A DNA stretch of 62,518 nt from NCBI RefSeq assembly GCF_024449025.1, contig NZ_JAHLKM010000017.1, positions 1-62,518 of the forward strand. The letters run 5' to 3'. This document shows, piece by piece, positions 5,488 through 29,413 of the stretch. The position numbers were made by a program, and so were the translations under genes. Origin of the DNA: Natronomonas aquatica (lineage in GTDB: Archaea > Halobacteriota > Halobacteria > Halobacteriales > Haloarculaceae). The notes under the pieces are model-generated. The model was not told the DNA's origin. It searched no databases and was given only the letters and a program-made list of their open reading frames with translations. Every line of letters begins with the position of its first letter. Position 1 is the stretch's first letter.

Positions 5488-5838
5488 TCAAGAGTCGCCG
5501 CCGACGTCGGCAGTTGAGTGCTCGGCGGCAACTGTCTGCAACTGCTCGGCGAGGGCCTCAGCGTCGGGGGCCGACAACAAGGCAGTAACGTGACCGCTTG
5601 CGGTCGTCAACTGCAGCCCGATCGCATCCTCATACGGAGTGACTGAGATCTCGACCTCGGTCGTCGGCGAACTCGAGACCACGAAACTGCCACGCGTCGA
5701 GAGTGGCGTTGATTCCGAGGCAGTGTCAGTTACGAGGCTCCCGCCATCGGTACGAGGACCATTGGTCGAATCGAAAAGGCGCTTAAGGACGGCAGCCGCC
5801 GCTAACCACGGCGCACTGGAGGGCTCCTCGCTCGTCAT
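5488..5838 (-). CDS. Conserved haloarchaeal protein, copy A of three
   Basis: 116 aa. The family pattern is an Ala-rich helix (SSAPWLAAAAVLKRLFDST), the strand motif LSTRGSFVVSS, then PYEDAIGLQLTTASGHVTAL and a helical end (DAEALAEQLQTVAAEH). The pattern is kept in the copies at 11721 and 15272 while surrounding residues vary, so the proteins look under selection. The start ATG overlaps the stop of the upstream small ORF as ATGA. No domain is recognised and function is unknown. Confidence 0.6.
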   Translation of the reverse strand: MTSEEPSSAPWLAAAAVLKRLFDSTNGPRTDGGSLVTDTASESTPLSTRGSFVVSSSPTTEVEISVTPYEDAIGLQLTTASGHVTALLSAPDAEALAEQLQTVAAEHSTADVGGDS

Positions 5839-5963
5839 TGGGGCCCCTCCAGATCGAGTGATTTGGGCAGTTCTAGGACATCAACACTCAACGAGTCACA
5901 GTAGTTGGGCGATGACCGATACACAGACTGGGACGTCGGCGTTCGACGGAGTAAGACATTCAT
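5835..5963 (-). CDS. Small 42-aa protein coupled to the repeated gene, copy A
   Basis: ATG at 5963 gives MNVLLRRTPTSQSVYRSS and ends LPKSLDLEGPQ. The ATGA overlap with the following gene (5835-5838) occurs in all three copies, pointing to translational coupling. The pattern M(N/T)VLL..(T)P(T)S.(I)QSVYR...ESL(D/E)LE is kept between copies. A longer frame to 6101 is open but is out of phase with the other copies because of a one-base indel, so the internal ATG is chosen. Confidence 0.5.
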   Translation of the reverse strand: MNVLLRRTPTSQSVYRSSPNYCDSLSVDVLELPKSLDLEGPQ

Positions 5964-6153
5964 TGTACTGTCAATCGACGAGTGCTCGTCGGCACCCGCC
6001 GGACGGCCACGATGTGGAGAGCCACTAGAGCGACACGAGCCACTCACCGCAAGCTGGCAGCTACCCGACACCGGACCACGACTCAATCCAAAAAAATACA
6101 CGCTTAACCCGTGACCCAGCCTCTCGAACCGGTAGTCGCTGGATGGCTACCGT

Positions 6154-11720: not shown

Positions 11721-12077
11721 TCAGGGCCAAGAGTCGCCGCCGGCGTCGGCAGTCGAGTGCTCGATAGCGGCTGTTTGCAACTGCTCGACGAGAGCCTCAG
11801 CGTCGGTCGCCGACAACAAGGCGGTGACGTGACCACTCGTGGTCGTCAACTGTAGCCCGATCGCATCCTCGTACGGAGTAACGGAAACCGCAACGTCGGT
11901 CGTCGGCGGACTCGAAACCACGAAACTGCCACGCGTCGAAAGCGGCGTCATCCCAGACGCAGTGGCAGTTATGAGGCTCCCGCCGTCGGTACGAGGACCA
12001 TCAGTCGAGTCGGGAAGGCGCTCGAGGACGGCGGCTGCCGCCAACCACGGCGCACTGGAGGGCTCCTCGCTCGTCAT
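11721..12077 (-). CDS. Conserved haloarchaeal protein, copy B of three
   Basis: 118 aa, aligned end to end with copies A and C: SAPWLAAAAVLERLPDST, LSTRGSFVVSSPPTTDV, PYEDAIGLQLTTTSGH and DAEALVEQLQTAA. Start ATG overlaps the upstream small ORF as ATGA. On the same strand beyond the stop a short frame (MSGNFCPDGSGPVSGPSPRG) is partly shared with copy C but diverges quickly. Function unknown. Confidence 0.6.
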   Translation of the reverse strand: MTSEEPSSAPWLAAAAVLERLPDSTDGPRTDGGSLITATASGMTPLSTRGSFVVSSPPTTDVAVSVTPYEDAIGLQLTTTSGHVTALLSATDAEALVEQLQTAAIEHSTADAGGDSWP

Positions 12078-12202
12078 CGGTGGGCCTCCAGGTCGAGCGA
12101 CTCAGTTGGTTCCTCGACAGGGGCACGCAACGAGTCACAGTCGTTGGGCGATGATCGATACACGAATTGAATCGTCGATGTTGGACAGAGTAAAACAGTC
12201 AT
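12074..12202 (-). CDS. Small 42-aa protein coupled to the repeated gene, copy B
   Basis: ATG at 12202: MTVLLCPTSTIQFVYRSS, ending ESLDLEAHR. A GTG frame from 12316 is open but lies about 10 bases upstream of where the TATA box would start the RNA. About 100 bases of leader therefore precede the ATG. The ATGA overlap with the next gene is conserved. Confidence 0.5.
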   Translation of the reverse strand: MTVLLCPTSTIQFVYRSSPNDCDSLRAPVEEPTESLDLEAHR

Positions 12203-12530
12203 TGTACTGTCAACCGGCGAGTGCTCGTCGGCACCCGCGCGGCCACGGTGTGGAGAGCCACCTCGAGCGACACAGGCCGCTTGCCGCAGGCTGGCAGCCA
12301 ACCGACACCGGACCACGACTCAATTCTATAAATACACTCTCAGGGATCGATGAACCACTCTCCGCTACTTCCTTCAGGGACAATACTCCCACTCGCCCGT
12401 CGATGCCGAGATCTGTCATGAATGGCTGAACCTCTCCGGGGCGATCATCGGCGTCCATACTACGCACAACGGCAGTAAGTGAACTGGCTCGAAGAGTTGA
12501 AAACGGGAGACAGCATACACAAAAACACGA

Positions 12531-15271: not shown

Positions 15272-15625
15272 TCAGGGCCAGGACTCGTCGCCGACCTTGC
15301 CAGTCGAGTACTCGGTGGCGGCGACCTGCAACCGCTCGGCGAGGGCCTCGGCGTCGGTGGCCGACAACAAAGCGGTGACGTGACCGCTTGCGGTCGTCAA
15401 CTGCAGCCCGATCGCATCCTCGTACGGGGTAACCGAGATTTCGACGTTAGTGGTCGGTGGACTGGAAACCACGAAACTCCCACGCGTCGAGAGCGTCTTC
15501 GCCGTCGCGGTGTCAGCTGTGCGGCTCCCACCGTTGGTACGAGGACCATTGGTCGAATCAGAGAGGCGCTTAAGGACGGCAGCTGCCGCCAACCACGGCG
15601 CACTGGAGGAATCCTCGCTCGTCAT
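15272..15625 (-). CDS. Conserved haloarchaeal protein, copy C of three
   Basis: 117 aa: SSAPWLAAAAVLKRLSDST, LSTRGSFVVSSPPTTNV, PYEDAIGLQLTTASGH and DAEALAERLQVAATEY. Three-residue indels between copies keep the frame, consistent with selection on the protein. ATGA overlap with the upstream small ORF. Function unknown. Confidence 0.6.
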   Translation of the reverse strand: MTSEDSSSAPWLAAAAVLKRLSDSTNGPRTNGGSRTADTATAKTLSTRGSFVVSSPPTTNVEISVTPYEDAIGLQLTTASGHVTALLSATDAEALAERLQVAATEYSTGKVGDESWP

Positions 15626-15750
15626 CGGTGACCCTCCAGTTCGAGCGATTCGGTCAATTCCTCGACGTCGGCACTCGATGAATCACGGTGGCTGAAGGGT
15701 AATCGATACACGGATTGAATCGTCGATGTTGGACAGAGGAGTACGTTCAT
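15622..15750 (-). CDS. Small 42-aa protein coupled to the repeated gene, copy C
   Basis: ATG at 15750: MNVLLCPTSTIQSVYRLP, ending ELTESLELEGHR. It is closest to copy B. A GTG frame from 15873 is open, but the shared internal ATG is preferred as in the other copies. Confidence 0.5.
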   Translation of the reverse strand: MNVLLCPTSTIQSVYRLPFSHRDSSSADVEELTESLELEGHR

Positions 15751-15948
15751 CGTATTATACGGCGGCGAGTACTCGTCGGCACCCGCCGGATACGGACGGC
15801 CACGATGCGGAGAGCCGCCAAGAACGGCAGGGGTCGCTCGCCGCGGGCTGGCAGCTAACCGACACCGGACCACGACTCACTTCCATAAATACGCTCTCAG
15901 GGATCGGTGAGCCAACCTATCGAACCGGTTGACTGGAGTTCCACAACC

Positions 15949-23803: not shown

Positions 23804-24028
23804 CTACCGCGGATCGTCAACCAACTCATAGACCCCGGTATCAAACAGGTTCTCGATGTGATCGTGTTCAGCGAGCCGTTTCATCCGCATATTCACATAC
23901 TGTCTAGAGAACTCGTGATCATCGGCGGCAAGGGATTTCTGGACCAACGTTGGAGTCGCCCGCCCGTCAGCCAGCACATCCAAAATCAGATCGTCGACAT
24001 CGTTGAGTTGCTCGGGCGTGAGAGACAT
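23804..24028 (-). CDS. Small winged-helix repressor (phiH1-repressor-like)
   Basis: 74 aa from ATG 24028: MSLTPEQLNDVDDLILDVLA, then a helix pair (RATPTLVQKSLAADDHEFSRQ, VNMRMKRLAEHDHIENL) and wing GVYELVDDPR. The size and layout match haloarchaeal phage-type winged-helix repressors. CTATACCC lies about 25 bases upstream of this ATG, favouring it over the GTG at 24037. It is divergent from the nuclease-helicase operon and nested palindromes lie between them. Confidence 0.65.
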   Translation of the reverse strand: MSLTPEQLNDVDDLILDVLADGRATPTLVQKSLAADDHEFSRQYVNMRMKRLAEHDHIENLFDTGVYELVDDPR

Positions 24029-24088
24029 ATTCGGCACTCACACATCGGGGGGGTATAGATGTGTCTCTCAGCAGTTTCGAAATGTTGT

Positions 24089-24139: not shown

Positions 24140-24301
24140 GAGGTATGCACAGGCCACGAGCGATACCTCACCGGGCTATCGGCGGTCGGCAGGACTGCGG
24201 GTATCGGCGCCAAGCAATACTGCTCACCACAGCAGACGTCGAGCAGGAAGACGAGCCGGCGCCGATCTGTCCGGTCTCAGTAAACGATATTGATAGAAAC
24301 A

Positions 24302-27300
24302 ATGAGTAACCACGATACCGACCCTCTAGATCCGAGCGGGATCGCACAGTTCATCCAGCACGACCGGTGCCGGCGGTATCTCAAACAGCGGGTTGACCCC
24401 GGCGATGAGCCCGAAGCTCGCGAGTGGACGGAAGCCTTCAGCGCTATGAATGCCGGGCTCCTCGGCGAGGGCCAAGAGTTCGAAGCAGTCCAAATAGAGG
24501 CCCTTGCAACAAACGCAGCGCGAATTATCGGCCCGGAGCGCGACGCGACGGGGAAAGCCGGTGTTCCGGGGATCGATATCGATGCGACGTGGGCAGAGTC
24601 CACAACAGGCCGTAGACGACAGCTGCAAGAGGCCGCTGAGGCGGCTCGACAGCTCACAACGGACGGAGAGCTTTCCTACATCCTGTGTTATCAGGCTCCC
24701 CTTGGCGGGCAACTCGGCGCTGAAGCTGTCTGGGGCGAAGCGGATTGTCTCGTGTTCGCGCCGGCACAGGCCGAAGAGATCGACGTGGTGGCCCGCGTTC
24801 TAGAGATCAAAAGCGCCACCGAGCAACAGCGTGCCCATCGCGTACAGGTCGCTATCTACAGCGCACTGCTAGACGAGATCCTCAGCGAAACTGATGGCTA
24901 TCGCATCGAGACAAGCGTGCTCACGCGGCCGGATGCGGCTGCCACCGGTGAGTCGCTGGACCCGTTTGCCGTGCCGACGTTTTCCCGGGAGAAGTGGGTG
25001 GTGTTCGCCGAGCGGCTGCTTGCAGCCGATGGCCCGGTCGAGTCAGCACTAGCTGATGATCTTGAAGACCTGCCGTTTGCGTTGGATCAGGTCTGTAACA
25101 ACTGTGCCTACCGGGAGGCCTGCGCAACACGGGCCATCGAGGACCCGACTGCTGCCTCCAGCCTGGCGTTGTTGGGGGTAGATGCCAGCGTCCAACGCGC
25201 GCTCAAAGAGTGCGATATCACGAACCTCCGGGAGCTCTCGGAGTTGATGCCACGCGTCTCGGATCCACAGCCTACGGACCCGCCGCCAGAGCTTGATCTT
25301 GCCCCCGCCCGACAGCGGAAACTTGAGCAAGCACTGCCGGGGCCGGTCCACCGGATCGTCCAGCGGGCACAAGTGCTCCGCGGCGAGATCGACCCGAAGT
25401 ATTCGGCCATGACTCGTCCGCCAGCCTACCGCGGCCAACAGTGGGTGCCACTTCCGGACGACCGGGTGGCCGGTTGGGGCAATATCGACACGGCAGCCCC
25501 CGGGGAGCTGATCCACGTCGCCGTGTTCGTCCGTCCGGACTCGACGATCGACCGGGTCGGTGCGCTCGGAGCGTGTGTCTACGCTGCCGAGGACGGCACC
25601 TATCATACTGTCAGCGAAACACTGGACGCCGTCCCCAAGACGGCTGCCGCGGCTGACGAACTCGAGGCGGCGCTGTTCGATCGGTTCTGCCGGCAGGTGT
25701 TTGACGCGATCGAGACGGTCGGCGAGGCTCTCGGGAACTCGTCCGCAGCGCTGCACTGGTACACGTATACCAAGCACGAACTCGACGCTCTCGCCGAGGG
25801 GCTCGAGCGACATCCCGAACTCGACAACGCACAGGCGCTTCGCAACCTGCTGAATCTACATCGGGACGGCCACACCGAGACCGATCAGGAGATGGCTACG
25901 GCGGTCCAGCCGATCGTGAACGAGTACTTTGCACTGGCGTATTCCTCGCAGGGGCTGTTTGCCGTCGCCGAGCAATTCATTCCCGGGTGGACGATCGAGG
26001 CGTTCGATCCGCTGGATGCACGTGGTGAGACGCCGCCGCTGCGATCGATTTTCGGGTATCAGTTCATACGTGAGCAGGTGCCGTATCTCGAGGCTTCAGA
26101 TCGGATCCGACTGCATTTGGCTCGCAGGCCCCTCGCCGAGGGGCCGGCCGCCGCAGCCGTTGGTGACGATGAGACACGGTCAACGCCGGATGGGTGGTAC
26201 CCGATCCGGAAACGGGCCGGCGGACAGTTCCCGATCGAGTATCTTTGGGCAGCGTTGCCGGCCACGCCGGGAGCCGAGACGCCACGGCTCACCCCAAACC
26301 GGGTAACCGAATGGACGGCTGATGCTGACACGCAGGCGCTGTACCGCCAGGAACTCGAGGGATTTTATTATCGGACTAAGAACAAAGACGACCCGATCCA
26401 GCGATCGGACATCGAGTATCTCTGTGAGCGTCTCAGCTACACGCTGTGTCGACTCGTCGAGTCGATTCCATACAAGGACACATATTTTGAGAAACAATCG
26501 CTTGAGACGGGGACGCTCTCGGAGTTCGAGGTGCCGGTAACCGACCTGCCCAGCGCCGCCCGCGATTACCTCCAGATGGAACACGGTGCCCGCCGGGAAG
26601 CCACTTTAGAGCACTACCGACAACCGCTGCGAGACCGGGCCCGAAGCGGGCGGTCAATCCTGATCGAGTGTACCGGCGTCGAAACCAACACGGATGGATC
26701 CCTCTCGATTACGGGGACGTTGGCATACGAGTCGGTGTTCGAGGCTACTGCAGCCGATCAGATCGCTCGCCAGGCGCGTATTCGTGGCGATGATGGCTCG
26801 GGCGGTGGGAGTTGGCGTATCCTGACGCGGCTCAACCCGACCACAGACGACACGCCGGGAGCTGCATCGAGCACCTACGCCGAAGCCGGTATCGAGGCCC
26901 CAAAGGAGATCCAACACTCCCCGCCGGTCCAGATCGACTCTCTTAATCAGGCGACCGGGTCGATCCAGCTGACAGCGTTTCCCCACCGGTTCAAACGGAA
27001 TTACACCGCCTTTCGGGTCGATCACTGTGGCTGGCGGTCGCCAGACAGCGATAATCTCGATGATCCCACGACAGCGCCGGCCGACCGCGACGGCGTTATT
27101 GCGGCCCGACCACCCGTTGCGATCGAGCCCGGCGCCCGGTTCGTGCTCGATCCGATGGTCGATGAGTTCGGCGCGCCGAAAGCAAACCGGGCGCTCCAGC
27201 CGCCGACGATCCAGGCAAACGTCCTGTATCAACATCTCAAATTCATCGACCAGACAGGCCAACAACCCCCTGCGATGGCCGCCCCACCGACGGGTGTCGG

Positions 27301-28174
27301 TCGGTTCTGTGAGCGGCTCCGTGAGGCCCCAGCCTGTCTAACGCCGAACGAGCGTCAACAGGCGTTTATCAACGCGACCGATCGGGCGATTGTCCCGCTG
27401 CAGGGCCCGCCCGGGACCGGCAAAACACGCGGTGCGATCGCCCCAGCCGTACTCGGGCGAGCGTTTGCCCACGCGGAGCAATCAACCCCATTCGTTGGGT
27501 TTGTGGTAGCGCCGTCACACGAGGCCGTTGACGCCGCGCTTGAAGGCGTGGTTGCGACGCTCGCAGAATGGCGACACACGGAAACCGGGTTAGCAACGCT
27601 TGAGCTCCTTCGCGTGCAGCCGTCATCCCCACCGGACGAGACGGCCCGCGTTGATGCTGACACGGCAGCTGTCGAGGTCACGTACTGTAATTATCATGAC
27701 AGCGAGGATGCGGCGACGCTGGGTCAGATCGCAGAGGAAACAACCGGCGAAGCAACCGGCAGTGACGCCTCGCCCGGGCAGTATCTGCTGTTCATGACGC
27801 CAACGACGCTGTACCAGACGCTCGGGACCATCGCCGAGTCGGTCACGGCGATTGACGGCACCTCGGCGCCGGCGGCGATGCGGCATGAGCCAGGGATCGC
27901 TGACGTCCTTTGTGTCGATGAGGCGAGCATGCTGGACGTCCCGGCTCTTTTGTTGGCCGGCAGCGCCCTGAAGCCGAGTGGGCAGACCCTGTTGATCGGT
28001 GATCACCGACAGTTGGCGACGATTACAGCCGTCGACTGGCAGGAAACCCTCCGGCGATCGGTTACCGACGCTGATGCCCACCGGTCGGCACTTGATTACG
28101 TCCGACGGCTCGTTGGGACGGCACCGCAGGCTGGCTGTGCCGACCGAACTGGAGGTGACACCGATGCCGACTGA
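24302..28174 (+). CDS. Cas4/Dna2-like nuclease fused to SF1 helicase N-terminal half
   Basis: 1290 aa, ATG 24302 (MSNHDTDPLDPSG). The N-terminal RecB-type nuclease resembles TM0106/Cas4 proteins: a first Cys in HDRCRRYL, the active-site VLEIKSAT near residue 170, and CNNCAYREAC near 265, together the four Cys of an Fe-S cluster. A long middle region follows. The helicase core begins near residue 1030 with Walker A QGPPGTGKT, then Walker B LCVDEASM and motif III LLIGDHRQLA. The ORF ends soon after motif III, so the second RecA domain is in the next ORF. Acts on DNA ends or R-loops by family analogy; a defence role is possible. Confidence 0.75.
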   Translation: MSNHDTDPLDPSGIAQFIQHDRCRRYLKQRVDPGDEPEAREWTEAFSAMNAGLLGEGQEFEAVQIEALATNAARIIGPERDATGKAGVPGIDIDATWAESTTGRRRQLQEAAEAARQLTTDGELSYILCYQAPLGGQLGAEAVWGEADCLVFAPAQAEEIDVVARVLEIKSATEQQRAHRVQVAIYSALLDEILSETDGYRIETSVLTRPDAAATGESLDPFAVPTFSREKWVVFAERLLAADGPVESALADDLEDLPFALDQVCNNCAYREACATRAIEDPTAASSLALLGVDASVQRALKECDITNLRELSELMPRVSDPQPTDPPPELDLAPARQRKLEQALPGPVHRIVQRAQVLRGEIDPKYSAMTRPPAYRGQQWVPLPDDRVAGWGNIDTAAPGELIHVAVFVRPDSTIDRVGALGACVYAAEDGTYHTVSETLDAVPKTAAAADELEAALFDRFCRQVFDAIETVGEALGNSSAALHWYTYTKHELDALAEGLERHPELDNAQALRNLLNLHRDGHTETDQEMATAVQPIVNEYFALAYSSQGLFAVAEQFIPGWTIEAFDPLDARGETPPLRSIFGYQFIREQVPYLEASDRIRLHLARRPLAEGPAAAAVGDDETRSTPDGWYPIRKRAGGQFPIEYLWAALPATPGAETPRLTPNRVTEWTADADTQALYRQELEGFYYRTKNKDDPIQRSDIEYLCERLSYTLCRLVESIPYKDTYFEKQSLETGTLSEFEVPVTDLPSAARDYLQMEHGARREATLEHYRQPLRDRARSGRSILIECTGVETNTDGSLSITGTLAYESVFEATAADQIARQARIRGDDGSGGGSWRILTRLNPTTDDTPGAASSTYAEAGIEAPKEIQHSPPVQIDSLNQATGSIQLTAFPHRFKRNYTAFRVDHCGWRSPDSDNLDDPTTAPADRDGVIAARPPVAIEPGARFVLDPMVDEFGAPKANRALQPPTIQANVLYQHLKFIDQTGQQPPAMAAPPTGVGRFCERLREAPACLTPNERQQAFINATDRAIVPLQGPPGTGKTRGAIAPAVLGRAFAHAEQSTPFVGFVVAPSHEAVDAALEGVVATLAEWRHTETGLATLELLRVQPSSPPDETARVDADTAAVEVTYCNYHDSEDAATLGQIAEETTGEATGSDASPGQYLLFMTPTTLYQTLGTIAESVTAIDGTSAPAAMRHEPGIADVLCVDEASMLDVPALLLAGSALKPSGQTLLIGDHRQLATITAVDWQETLRRSVTDADAHRSALDYVRRLVGTAPQAGCADRTGGDTDAD
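28151..28158 (+). promoter_or_regulatory. Shine-Dalgarno site at the helicase split
   Basis: GGAGGTGA ends 5 bases before ATG 28164, while the upstream ORF is still being read (stop at 28172). This supports re-initiation of the second helicase ORF rather than a simple frameshift error. Confidence 0.5.
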
Positions 28175-29039
28175 CCAGCCGCCGGAGGAACTCGACGGTG
28201 CCGACGAGACGCTCCCGATGACGGTCGAGCGGTTGGCTGAATCCTACCGCTTCGATAGTGAGATGGCTCGCCTGCTGACACAGTTGGAGTATCAGGCGGA
28301 CGGGATCACCCTGACAGCCGCCGAAAACCGACCGCTTCCAGACCGGGCGATCGACGCTACGAGCCCGGGGCTTGCGACCGTCTTCGAGAGCGATGCCTCA
28401 GTAGTGCTCATCACATATGATGAGCGATCCCACCGGATGGTGAATCCGATCGAGACGACGCTTATCGGTGCACTGGCCGGTGCTGTACGCACGGATAGCT
28501 CCGAGGAGACAGTGCCGGACGGCGGGACCGTTGGAAGCAATAAAAAAGAGCAGGCCAACAGAGCAACCACAGAAGACTTTGATTCCCTCGATTTCGGGGT
28601 TGTCACGCCACACAACGCCCAGCGAGGCGCCTTGGAGACGGCTTTGCCCGCCACGGTAACGGCCAATACCGTCGAAAAATACCAGGGTGGCGAGCGAGAC
28701 GTTATCGCTGTCTCTGCGACGGTTTCGGATCCGGAGTTCGCACGCCGCGAGGAGCAATTCCTGTTGGACCCACGCCGGCTGCTCGTCGCTATCTCCCGGG
28801 CGCGGCTCCAGACCATCATCGTTTGTAGCACGGCGCTGTTCGAGGTCGCCCCAATCGATAGCGATCGGTTGGATGACGGACCGGTTTGGGCACAGCTGTT
28901 TACTCAAGCCGTGGGGCGACAGGCCGAGCCAGCCTGGCGTGGATCGCTCGGTGAATTCATCCAACAGCCGGCTGTGGCACACGCGACGGTTCCCGTCGCG
29001 GTGTATCCGAGCACGATCAGTAACCACGACACCCAATGA
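28164..29039 (+). CDS. SF1 helicase C-terminal half
   Basis: 291 aa from ATG 28164 (MPTDQPPEELDGADE). It contains the second RecA domain: LAESYRFDSEMARLL, VVTPHNAQRGAL, VEKYQGGERDVI (motif V) and RRLLVAISRAR (motif VI with the arginine finger). It overlaps the upstream ORF by 11 bases in another frame and has its own SD. Joined, the two ORFs make one complete UPF1/Dna2-type helicase. Either a programmed or evolved split, or a frameshift or sequencing error, would give this picture. Confidence 0.7.
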   Translation: MPTDQPPEELDGADETLPMTVERLAESYRFDSEMARLLTQLEYQADGITLTAAENRPLPDRAIDATSPGLATVFESDASVVLITYDERSHRMVNPIETTLIGALAGAVRTDSSEETVPDGGTVGSNKKEQANRATTEDFDSLDFGVVTPHNAQRGALETALPATVTANTVEKYQGGERDVIAVSATVSDPEFARREEQFLLDPRRLLVAISRARLQTIIVCSTALFEVAPIDSDRLDDGPVWAQLFTQAVGRQAEPAWRGSLGEFIQQPAVAHATVPVAVYPSTISNHDTQ

Positions 29040-29413
29040 CGAACCACGATACCACCTCCGACACCGTTGAATCGGTTACTGCGGCCCCCGCCCAACTCTT
29101 TACCGGGGTTGGGATCGGGTTGCCGTCGCTGACAGTGATCTGTTCGCGCTGTGACAAGCGTTTACAAGAGGGCGATTCGGTATCCGTCTACGCCTACCGA
29201 CCCGCTGAGGGCTCTCAATGGTATATTGGTCGGTGTTGCTGTTCGTCCTGTGCGCCCGATCAGCTCACCGCCCCGACACTCGGAACGTCTGAGTGTCGAA
29301 TCAACGCCCGATTGGCTACTGTTTCAGAGGTCACTGCCCAGCACCACAGTCTCTGTCTGATCAAGCCGGCAGTTACTGCATTCGCGTCACCGACAACCGG
29401 GACAAGATCATAA
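29036..29413 (+). CDS. Cys-rich conserved haloarchaeal protein
   Basis: 125 aa, ATG overlapping the helicase stop (AATGA), so third gene of the operon. A zinc-binding pattern is visible: ICSRCDKRLQEGD and, 40 residues on, RCCCSSCAPD. The rest (PTLGTSECRINARLATVSE) matches a haloarchaeal family I recall near such helicases (possibly DUF8112, from memory). It likely binds zinc. Function is unknown. Confidence 0.6.
   Translation: MTNHDTTSDTVESVTAAPAQLFTGVGIGLPSLTVICSRCDKRLQEGDSVSVYAYRPAEGSQWYIGRCCCSSCAPDQLTAPTLGTSECRINARLATVSEVTAQHHSLCLIKPAVTAFASPTTGTRS

Follow-up and report, generated by a model that had tools for sequence, protein, structure and literature searches.

We analysed a 62,518-nt stretch (hereafter the window) of contig NZ_JAHLKM010000017.1 from the draft genome assembly (82 contigs) of Natronomonas aquatica (GCF_024449025.1), and found that it encodes a nuclease-helicase whose two RecA-like lobes lie on separate, overlapping open reading frames (ORFs), ORF1 and ORF2 (Table 1). 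By comparison with its relatives, this gene split is a real gene fission. In superfamily 1 and 2 (SF1/SF2) helicases, both RecA lobes normally belong to a single chain, since ATP is bound at their interface and their relative movement drives the motor. We consider it probable that an ancestral protein was divided within the linker between its lobes, and that the two chains, made by coupled translation, would act as one nuclease-helicase with a shared ATP site.

ORF2 begins before ORF1 has ended and reads in its +1 frame; its ATG follows a full-strength Shine-Dalgarno (SD) sequence, GGAGGTGA, after a gap of five bases. The 3' end of the 16S rRNA was found in the same genome (GGATCACCTCCT) and is complementary to GGAGGTGA, the predicted duplex having an energy of -15.0 kcal/mol. 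The first-pass annotation, made from the letters of the window alone, had placed the start of ORF2 within ORF1 in another frame and behind an SD at ideal spacing, and had argued that a random frameshift would be unlikely to supply both an SD and an ATG. This arrangement was confirmed: the genes overlap by 11 nt (ATGCCGACTGA), and an SD with an ATG at the spacing of ORF2 was observed once in the 62.5-kb window against 0.10 expected from shuffled sequence. A TTG is also present upstream of the ORF1 ATG, at 24290.

The residues of ORF1 place it with PD-(D/E)XK nucleases of the Cas4/RecB/Dna2 type (D, (E/D)xK, QxxxY, and one plus three cysteines). Among the 39 homologues compared, D148, K170, Q182, Y186 and Cys 23, 265, 268 and 274 are kept in 95-97%, and the Walker A, DEAS and GDxRQ motifs, motif V and the motif VI arginines are nearly invariant in split and fused members alike. 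In Pfam scans, ORF1 matched AAA_30/AAA_11/AAA_19 and ORF2 matched AAA_12; PDDEXK_1 and Cas4 fell under the cut-off in the single-sequence scan of ORF1, and PDDEXK_1 matched 15 of 16 family members at E <= 0.01. A sequence comparison of the nuclease part with the PDB gave no significant match. Walker A and motifs II, III, V and VI of an SF1B (Upf1/Dna2-like) helicase core are all present, but spread over two chains, and the single polypeptide that is usual, if not strictly defining, for SF1B lobes is replaced by separate ORFs in all six split loci. The first-pass assignment of a Cas4/Dna2-like nuclease with motifs I-III to ORF1, and of the later helicase motifs to the second ORF, thus agrees with the conserved residues and domain matches.

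We next aligned AlphaFold2 models of ORF1 residues 986-1290 (mean predicted local distance difference test score 81.6) and of ORF2 (79.0) to solved helicase structures. The two models fell on neighbouring stretches of the same chains in Dna2 (5ean; ORF1 on 611-820, ORF2 on 823-1056), Upf1 (2xzo; 449-695 and 699-905) and IGHMBP2 (4b3g; 173-433 and 438-648), and sequence profiles were consistent with this adjacent-lobe mapping. Therefore, the break corresponds to the inter-lobe linker, and the earlier claim of a split exactly between the RecA domains is upheld in three dimensions by the modelled chains. On either side of the break, the final 14 residues of ORF1 and roughly the first 24 of ORF2 have low model confidence, which fits flexible tails.

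To place the split in a wider context, we searched 146 genomes from the family of the window, 392 sampled from its order, and sets of 170, 125 and 3 from further families, these sets overlapping one another. A profile search of genome contigs with ORF1 alone gave no match, and the ORF2 profile recovered relatives. Five further close loci, cut at the same site and with 55-64% identity to the window locus, were found in four other genomes from three haloarchaeal families, namely Halovenus carboxidivorans (L032), archaeon SHRA6 (L068), the genome G154 (L067) and Halonotius pteroides (L124 and L125). The ORF1 and ORF2 genes overlap in all six split loci (L032, 4 nt; L068, 4; L067, 1 or 4; L124, 1; L125, 4), and each ORF2 has a start codon and an SD-like sequence (duplexes of -8.4 to -15.2 kcal/mol). 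All motifs are intact in the window locus and four others. For both ORFs, the ratio of nonsynonymous to synonymous substitution rates (dN/dS) was ~0.13-0.22 in comparisons between members with unsaturated dS, by which measure both halves are under purifying selection. No fused protein near the clade of the window was found in its family, the sampled order or the further families; no relatives were found among IMG/VR viral contigs, and plasmid records held distant, fused homologues only. The first-pass annotation had proposed looking for the same split in relatives, and would have counted as refuted by an extra or missing base or by close homologues that were all fused and lacked the SD. The opposite was found, since all five are split with SD-like sequences and form one clade with the window; its idea of a two-subunit helicase is therefore supported at the level of the genes. 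On this comparative evidence, the split is a conserved feature and not a sequencing error.

The split loci, all six, grouped as one clade in a phylogeny of 39 proteins (Shimodaira-Hasegawa-like approximate likelihood ratio test, 100), while the 26 fused homologues, including a member from Bathyarchaeota, were all more distant from the window. Of the 26 fused proteins, 25 have 36-49 residues between the lobes and the remaining one has 74; the two tails of the split proteins sum to 57-86 residues. The cut thus fell in a pre-existing linker, whose free ends have since lengthened and become more divergent. Another clade (Halomicrobium katesii, Halopiger djelfimassiliensis, Halobellus inordinatus and others) is cut elsewhere, between the nuclease and the whole helicase, with 4-8 nt overlaps and an SD; the same division recurs without overlap or SD in the genome G524. 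From its placement in the tree, this cut arose separately from the inter-lobe cut. Independent cuts of this kind indicate that domain boundaries in the family have repeatedly been turned into gene boundaries. Two near-identical nuclease and helicase pairs (L070 and L071) were also seen in genomes of two haloarchaeal families (G327 and G366), reflecting either recent transfer or contamination.

We then weighed other explanations of the gene pair. That a fused gene was merely broken by a frameshift mutation or a sequencing error would be in keeping with the draft state of the assembly and with the fused form of the distant homologues. A distant relative, L073 (G252), shows how such a break looks: at ~7469 of its reverse complement, a fused-type homologue is interrupted by what looks like an ordinary frameshift, with no SD and with its first ATG 47 nt past the stop. 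For the window, this explanation is hardly credible, given the same split with start codons and SDs in five loci at 55-64% identity, the selection on both halves, and a summed linker exceeding that of every fused protein but one. Programmed ribosomal frameshifting, which has been described for viruses of halophilic archaea (PMC5009743), could instead yield a full-length fusion, with ORF1 alone as the short product. However, it would need a +1 shift in the window and a -1 shift in the other five loci, and in L032, L067, L124 and L125 a stop shuts the ORF2 frame only two or three codons short of the end of ORF1, so that a shift site would have hardly any space. With an SD-like sequence and a start codon also present in all six loci, we regard frameshifting as very unlikely.

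It is similarly improbable that the pair is a short-lived, decaying passenger of mobile DNA. The patchy distribution, the truncated or partly duplicated copies in the genomes G154, G099 and G098 and a TraG/HerA-like gene close by in the window all point that way, but the low dN/dS, the intact motifs in the window and four other loci, and a single fission common to genomes of three haloarchaeal families do not fit decay. Alternatively, the proteins may act apart, with ORF1 serving as a nuclease whose half-motor is dead, and with ORF2 as a free regulator or in another function. This would accord with a complex that is deduced from the genes and with tails that hold no recognisable interaction domain. 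Yet the elements that cooperate across the lobe interface in known helicases (Walker A, motifs II and V, and the arginines of motif VI) have all been retained, and the genes have stayed overlapped in every locus. In SF1/SF2 helicases generally, moreover, a lone lobe is not expected to hydrolyse ATP efficiently, and we consider separate action unlikely.

The reading we prefer is thus an ancestral fission followed by joint assembly. The ancestor was a single-chain haloarchaeal protein with a RecB/Cas4-like PD-(D/E)XK nuclease, a middle region and an Upf1/Dna2-like SF1B helicase; in one lineage its chain was severed in the linker between the lobes, and the pair has since been maintained as overlapping genes. 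Ribosomes translating ORF1 would be held at its stop by the SD and restart at the overlapping ATG of ORF2 on the same mRNA, so that termination-reinitiation would make both chains together. In the joined enzyme, the nuclease, Walker A and motif II would come from ORF1, with motif V and the arginine finger contributed by ORF2. Both chains would accordingly be needed to hydrolyse ATP and to move along DNA, and the nuclease would cleave DNA fed or opened by the assembled motor. The split and its conservation, the SD, overlaps, catalytic motifs, selection and model fit are observed, whereas coupling, the complex with its shared ATP site, activity and the role of ORF3 are inferred.

Termination-reinitiation at overlapping genes is widespread in haloarchaea, and 13 of 14 overlapping pairs were strictly coupled in tests in Haloferax volcanii and E. 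coli (PMC6728339). Of seven H. volcanii cases in which the SD was removed, six showed a fall in reinitiation of ~20-80% and the other a rise (PMC6728339), and subunits of heteromeric complexes are 8.1-fold enriched among its short-distance gene pairs (PMC10666635). All six split loci show the structural hallmarks of a coupled pair (overlaps of 1-11 nt and an SD within the upstream gene), and reinitiation of ORF2, which the first-pass annotation had suggested might set the subunit ratio, would fit this precedent. Several observations nonetheless weigh against a stable, coupled enzyme. The 11-nt overlap of the window just exceeds the -8 to +6 range reported to favour reinitiation in H. volcanii. 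The front of ORF1 is disrupted in L067 and a Halovenus aranensis locus retains only an ORF2 fragment, which suggests that the split system also decays. Finally, the tails at the break are poorly conserved, modelled with low confidence, and hold no new dimerisation or recognisable interaction domain; assembly would thus depend on the interface native to the lobes, together with unmapped contacts elsewhere.

Among known systems, a likeness in domain order and catalytic residues along the entire length is shown by fused haloarchaeal homologues annotated as 'bifunctional RecB family nuclease/DEAD/DEAH box helicase' or 'AAA domain-containing protein' (26-30% identity for ORF1, with examples on Salinirubellus and Salinibaculum plasmids). 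These differ in being one polypeptide of ~1450-1650 aa, with no small Cys-rich relative adjoining in the stretches searched. Dna2 likewise combines a Cas4/RecB-like nuclease bearing four cysteines with an SF1B helicase, and the pieces match its core (Z 14.5 and 19.1), but Dna2 is a single chain and shows no such split. Both lobes also fit the SF1B helicases Upf1 and IGHMBP2 (SMUBP2; Z 15-19), which are single chains without a nuclease. Family tests rejected Cas4 (NCBIfam TIGR00372; 14.3 against a cut-off of 65 bits), the TM0106 family RecB-like nuclease (TIGR03491; 19.4 against 97.45 bits) and, for ORF2, the PLuB system helicase (NF040671; 39.5 against 999 bits). The Upf1-like lobes match the PLuB_AAA and Mokosh MkoA profiles through the common helicase core only; for MkoA the helicase part alone matches (E 8.9e-10 and 3.5e-16), no search having been aimed at the phospholipase-D partner. 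Profile scans of the gene pair assigned it to no defence family.

Helicase-containing archaeal proteins made from two genes are known from Nanoarchaeota, where Nanoarchaeum equitans has the helicase-related NEQ003/NEQ409 and the reverse gyrase NEQ318/NEQ434 (PMC3655853). Gene fission as such is therefore not new; those halves have distant gene numbers, hence do not overlap, and are likened here by gene split, not lobe position. Reinitiation pairs of H. volcanii resemble the window in their overlap, in an SD inside the upstream gene and in often encoding subunits of one complex (PMC6728339, PMC10666635), whereas the window pair descends from one ancestral protein and would share one motor. In the literature searched, mostly without subscription journals, we found no description of a natural helicase with its RecA lobes on separate chains; the type of enzyme is known, and the conserved inter-lobe cut is apparently undescribed there. 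This lineage offers a natural test of the need for a covalent link between the lobes. It also lets one ask how an ATP site common to two chains is put together and controlled, and whether the halves of an enzyme can be united by coupled translation alone. If the proposed assembly is true, the pair would represent a naturally bipartite SF1 motor core, open to reconstitution from its parts.

A third gene, ORF3, overlaps ORF2 and encodes a small cysteine-rich protein with no Pfam match. The first-pass annotation, whose range ran to 29413, described ORF1 and ORF2 as found here, but left ORF3 unmentioned in its text. Four of the six loci (the window, L032, L068 and L067) share an ORF2/ORF3 overlap of exactly 4 nt, although the C-terminal part of ORF3 in L067 is no longer alignable; in L124, an ORF3 relative lies directly upstream of ORF1 with an 8-nt overlap. 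ORF3 relatives were not seen beside fused or otherwise-split homologues in the stretches fetched, and ORF3-like genes also occur elsewhere in haloarchaea without the pair. Arranged like ORF2, ORF3 is a likely candidate for a third subunit or regulator. The fuller proposal, a stable, inherited three-gene enzyme with a motor from two chains and a Cys-rich third subunit, all translationally coupled, seems to us evenly poised.

Table 1. Features of the split nuclease-helicase locus and its surroundings (positions in the window)
Feature	Position	Strand	Description
ORF1 (p1)	24302..28174	+	1290 aa from ATG; PD-(D/E)XK nuclease (four Cys) at the N-terminus, then a long middle region, the first RecA-like lobe (motifs I-III) and a C-terminal tail modelled with low confidence
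ORF1 nuclease core	24368..25123	+	C23, D148, E-I-K170, Q182, Y186, C265, C268, C274
ORF1 Walker A (motif I) GPPGTGK	27404..27424	+	conserved in homologues
ORF1 motif II DEAS	27917..27928	+	conserved in homologues
ORF1 motif III GDHRQ	27998..28012	+	conserved in homologues
Shine-Dalgarno for ORF2 GGAGGTGA	28151..28158	+	within ORF1 3' end; counterparts in five relatives
ORF1/ORF2 overlap ATGCCGACTGA	28164..28174	+	11 nt; holds ORF2 start and ORF1 stop
ORF2 (p2)	28164..29039	+	291 aa from ATG; second RecA-like lobe (AAA_12, later helicase motifs) and C-terminal extension
ORF2 motif V TVEKYQGGE	28668..28694	+	conserved in homologues
ORF2 motif VI RRLLVAISRA	28773..28802	+	predicted arginine finger source
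ORF3 (p3)	29036..29413	+	125 aa, cysteine-rich, two CxxC-type pairs; 4-nt ATGA overlap with ORF2
Small divergent gene	23804..24037	-	77 aa; upstream of ORF1; no Pfam match above cut-off
Small-ORF pair copies	5488-6101, 11721-12316, 15272-15873	-	repeats

Homologues of the small divergent gene occur near ORF1 in two other split loci, and its product is possibly a regulator. GC content rises from ~0.56 (1-30500) to ~0.68 (30500-62518), the shift falling near 30.5 kb by an epimerase gene, and the ORF1-ORF3 cluster lies in the lower-GC half near the TraG/HerA-like gene. With TnpB-like, TrmB-like and TraG/HerA-like genes, the left part of the window is probably an integrated element or plasmid-derived DNA. 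Together, the low GC, the TraG/HerA-like neighbour and the truncated or repeated copies in relatives suggest that the split genes are cargo of mobile DNA, possibly with a role in defence or element maintenance. A sigma-70 promoter scan was set aside as not applicable to archaea.

In L032 (11746-14668; G099:C1), the ORF2 3' end recurs in three extra copies downstream of the intact trio, an ORF3 copy following in two cases, and unrelated small ORFs (helix-turn-helix, nucleotidyltransferase) separate the copies. The pattern resembles the outcome of insertion or recombination that took place repeatedly where the cluster ends, on its 3' side. In L067 (17037-18773), the truncated ORF1 is preceded by two additional copies of the ORF1 5' end, and among them are transposase-like genes related to the TnpB-like ORF of the window. 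The lower-GC half of the window itself holds three copies of a small-ORF pair (~80-88 aa and 117-118 aa).

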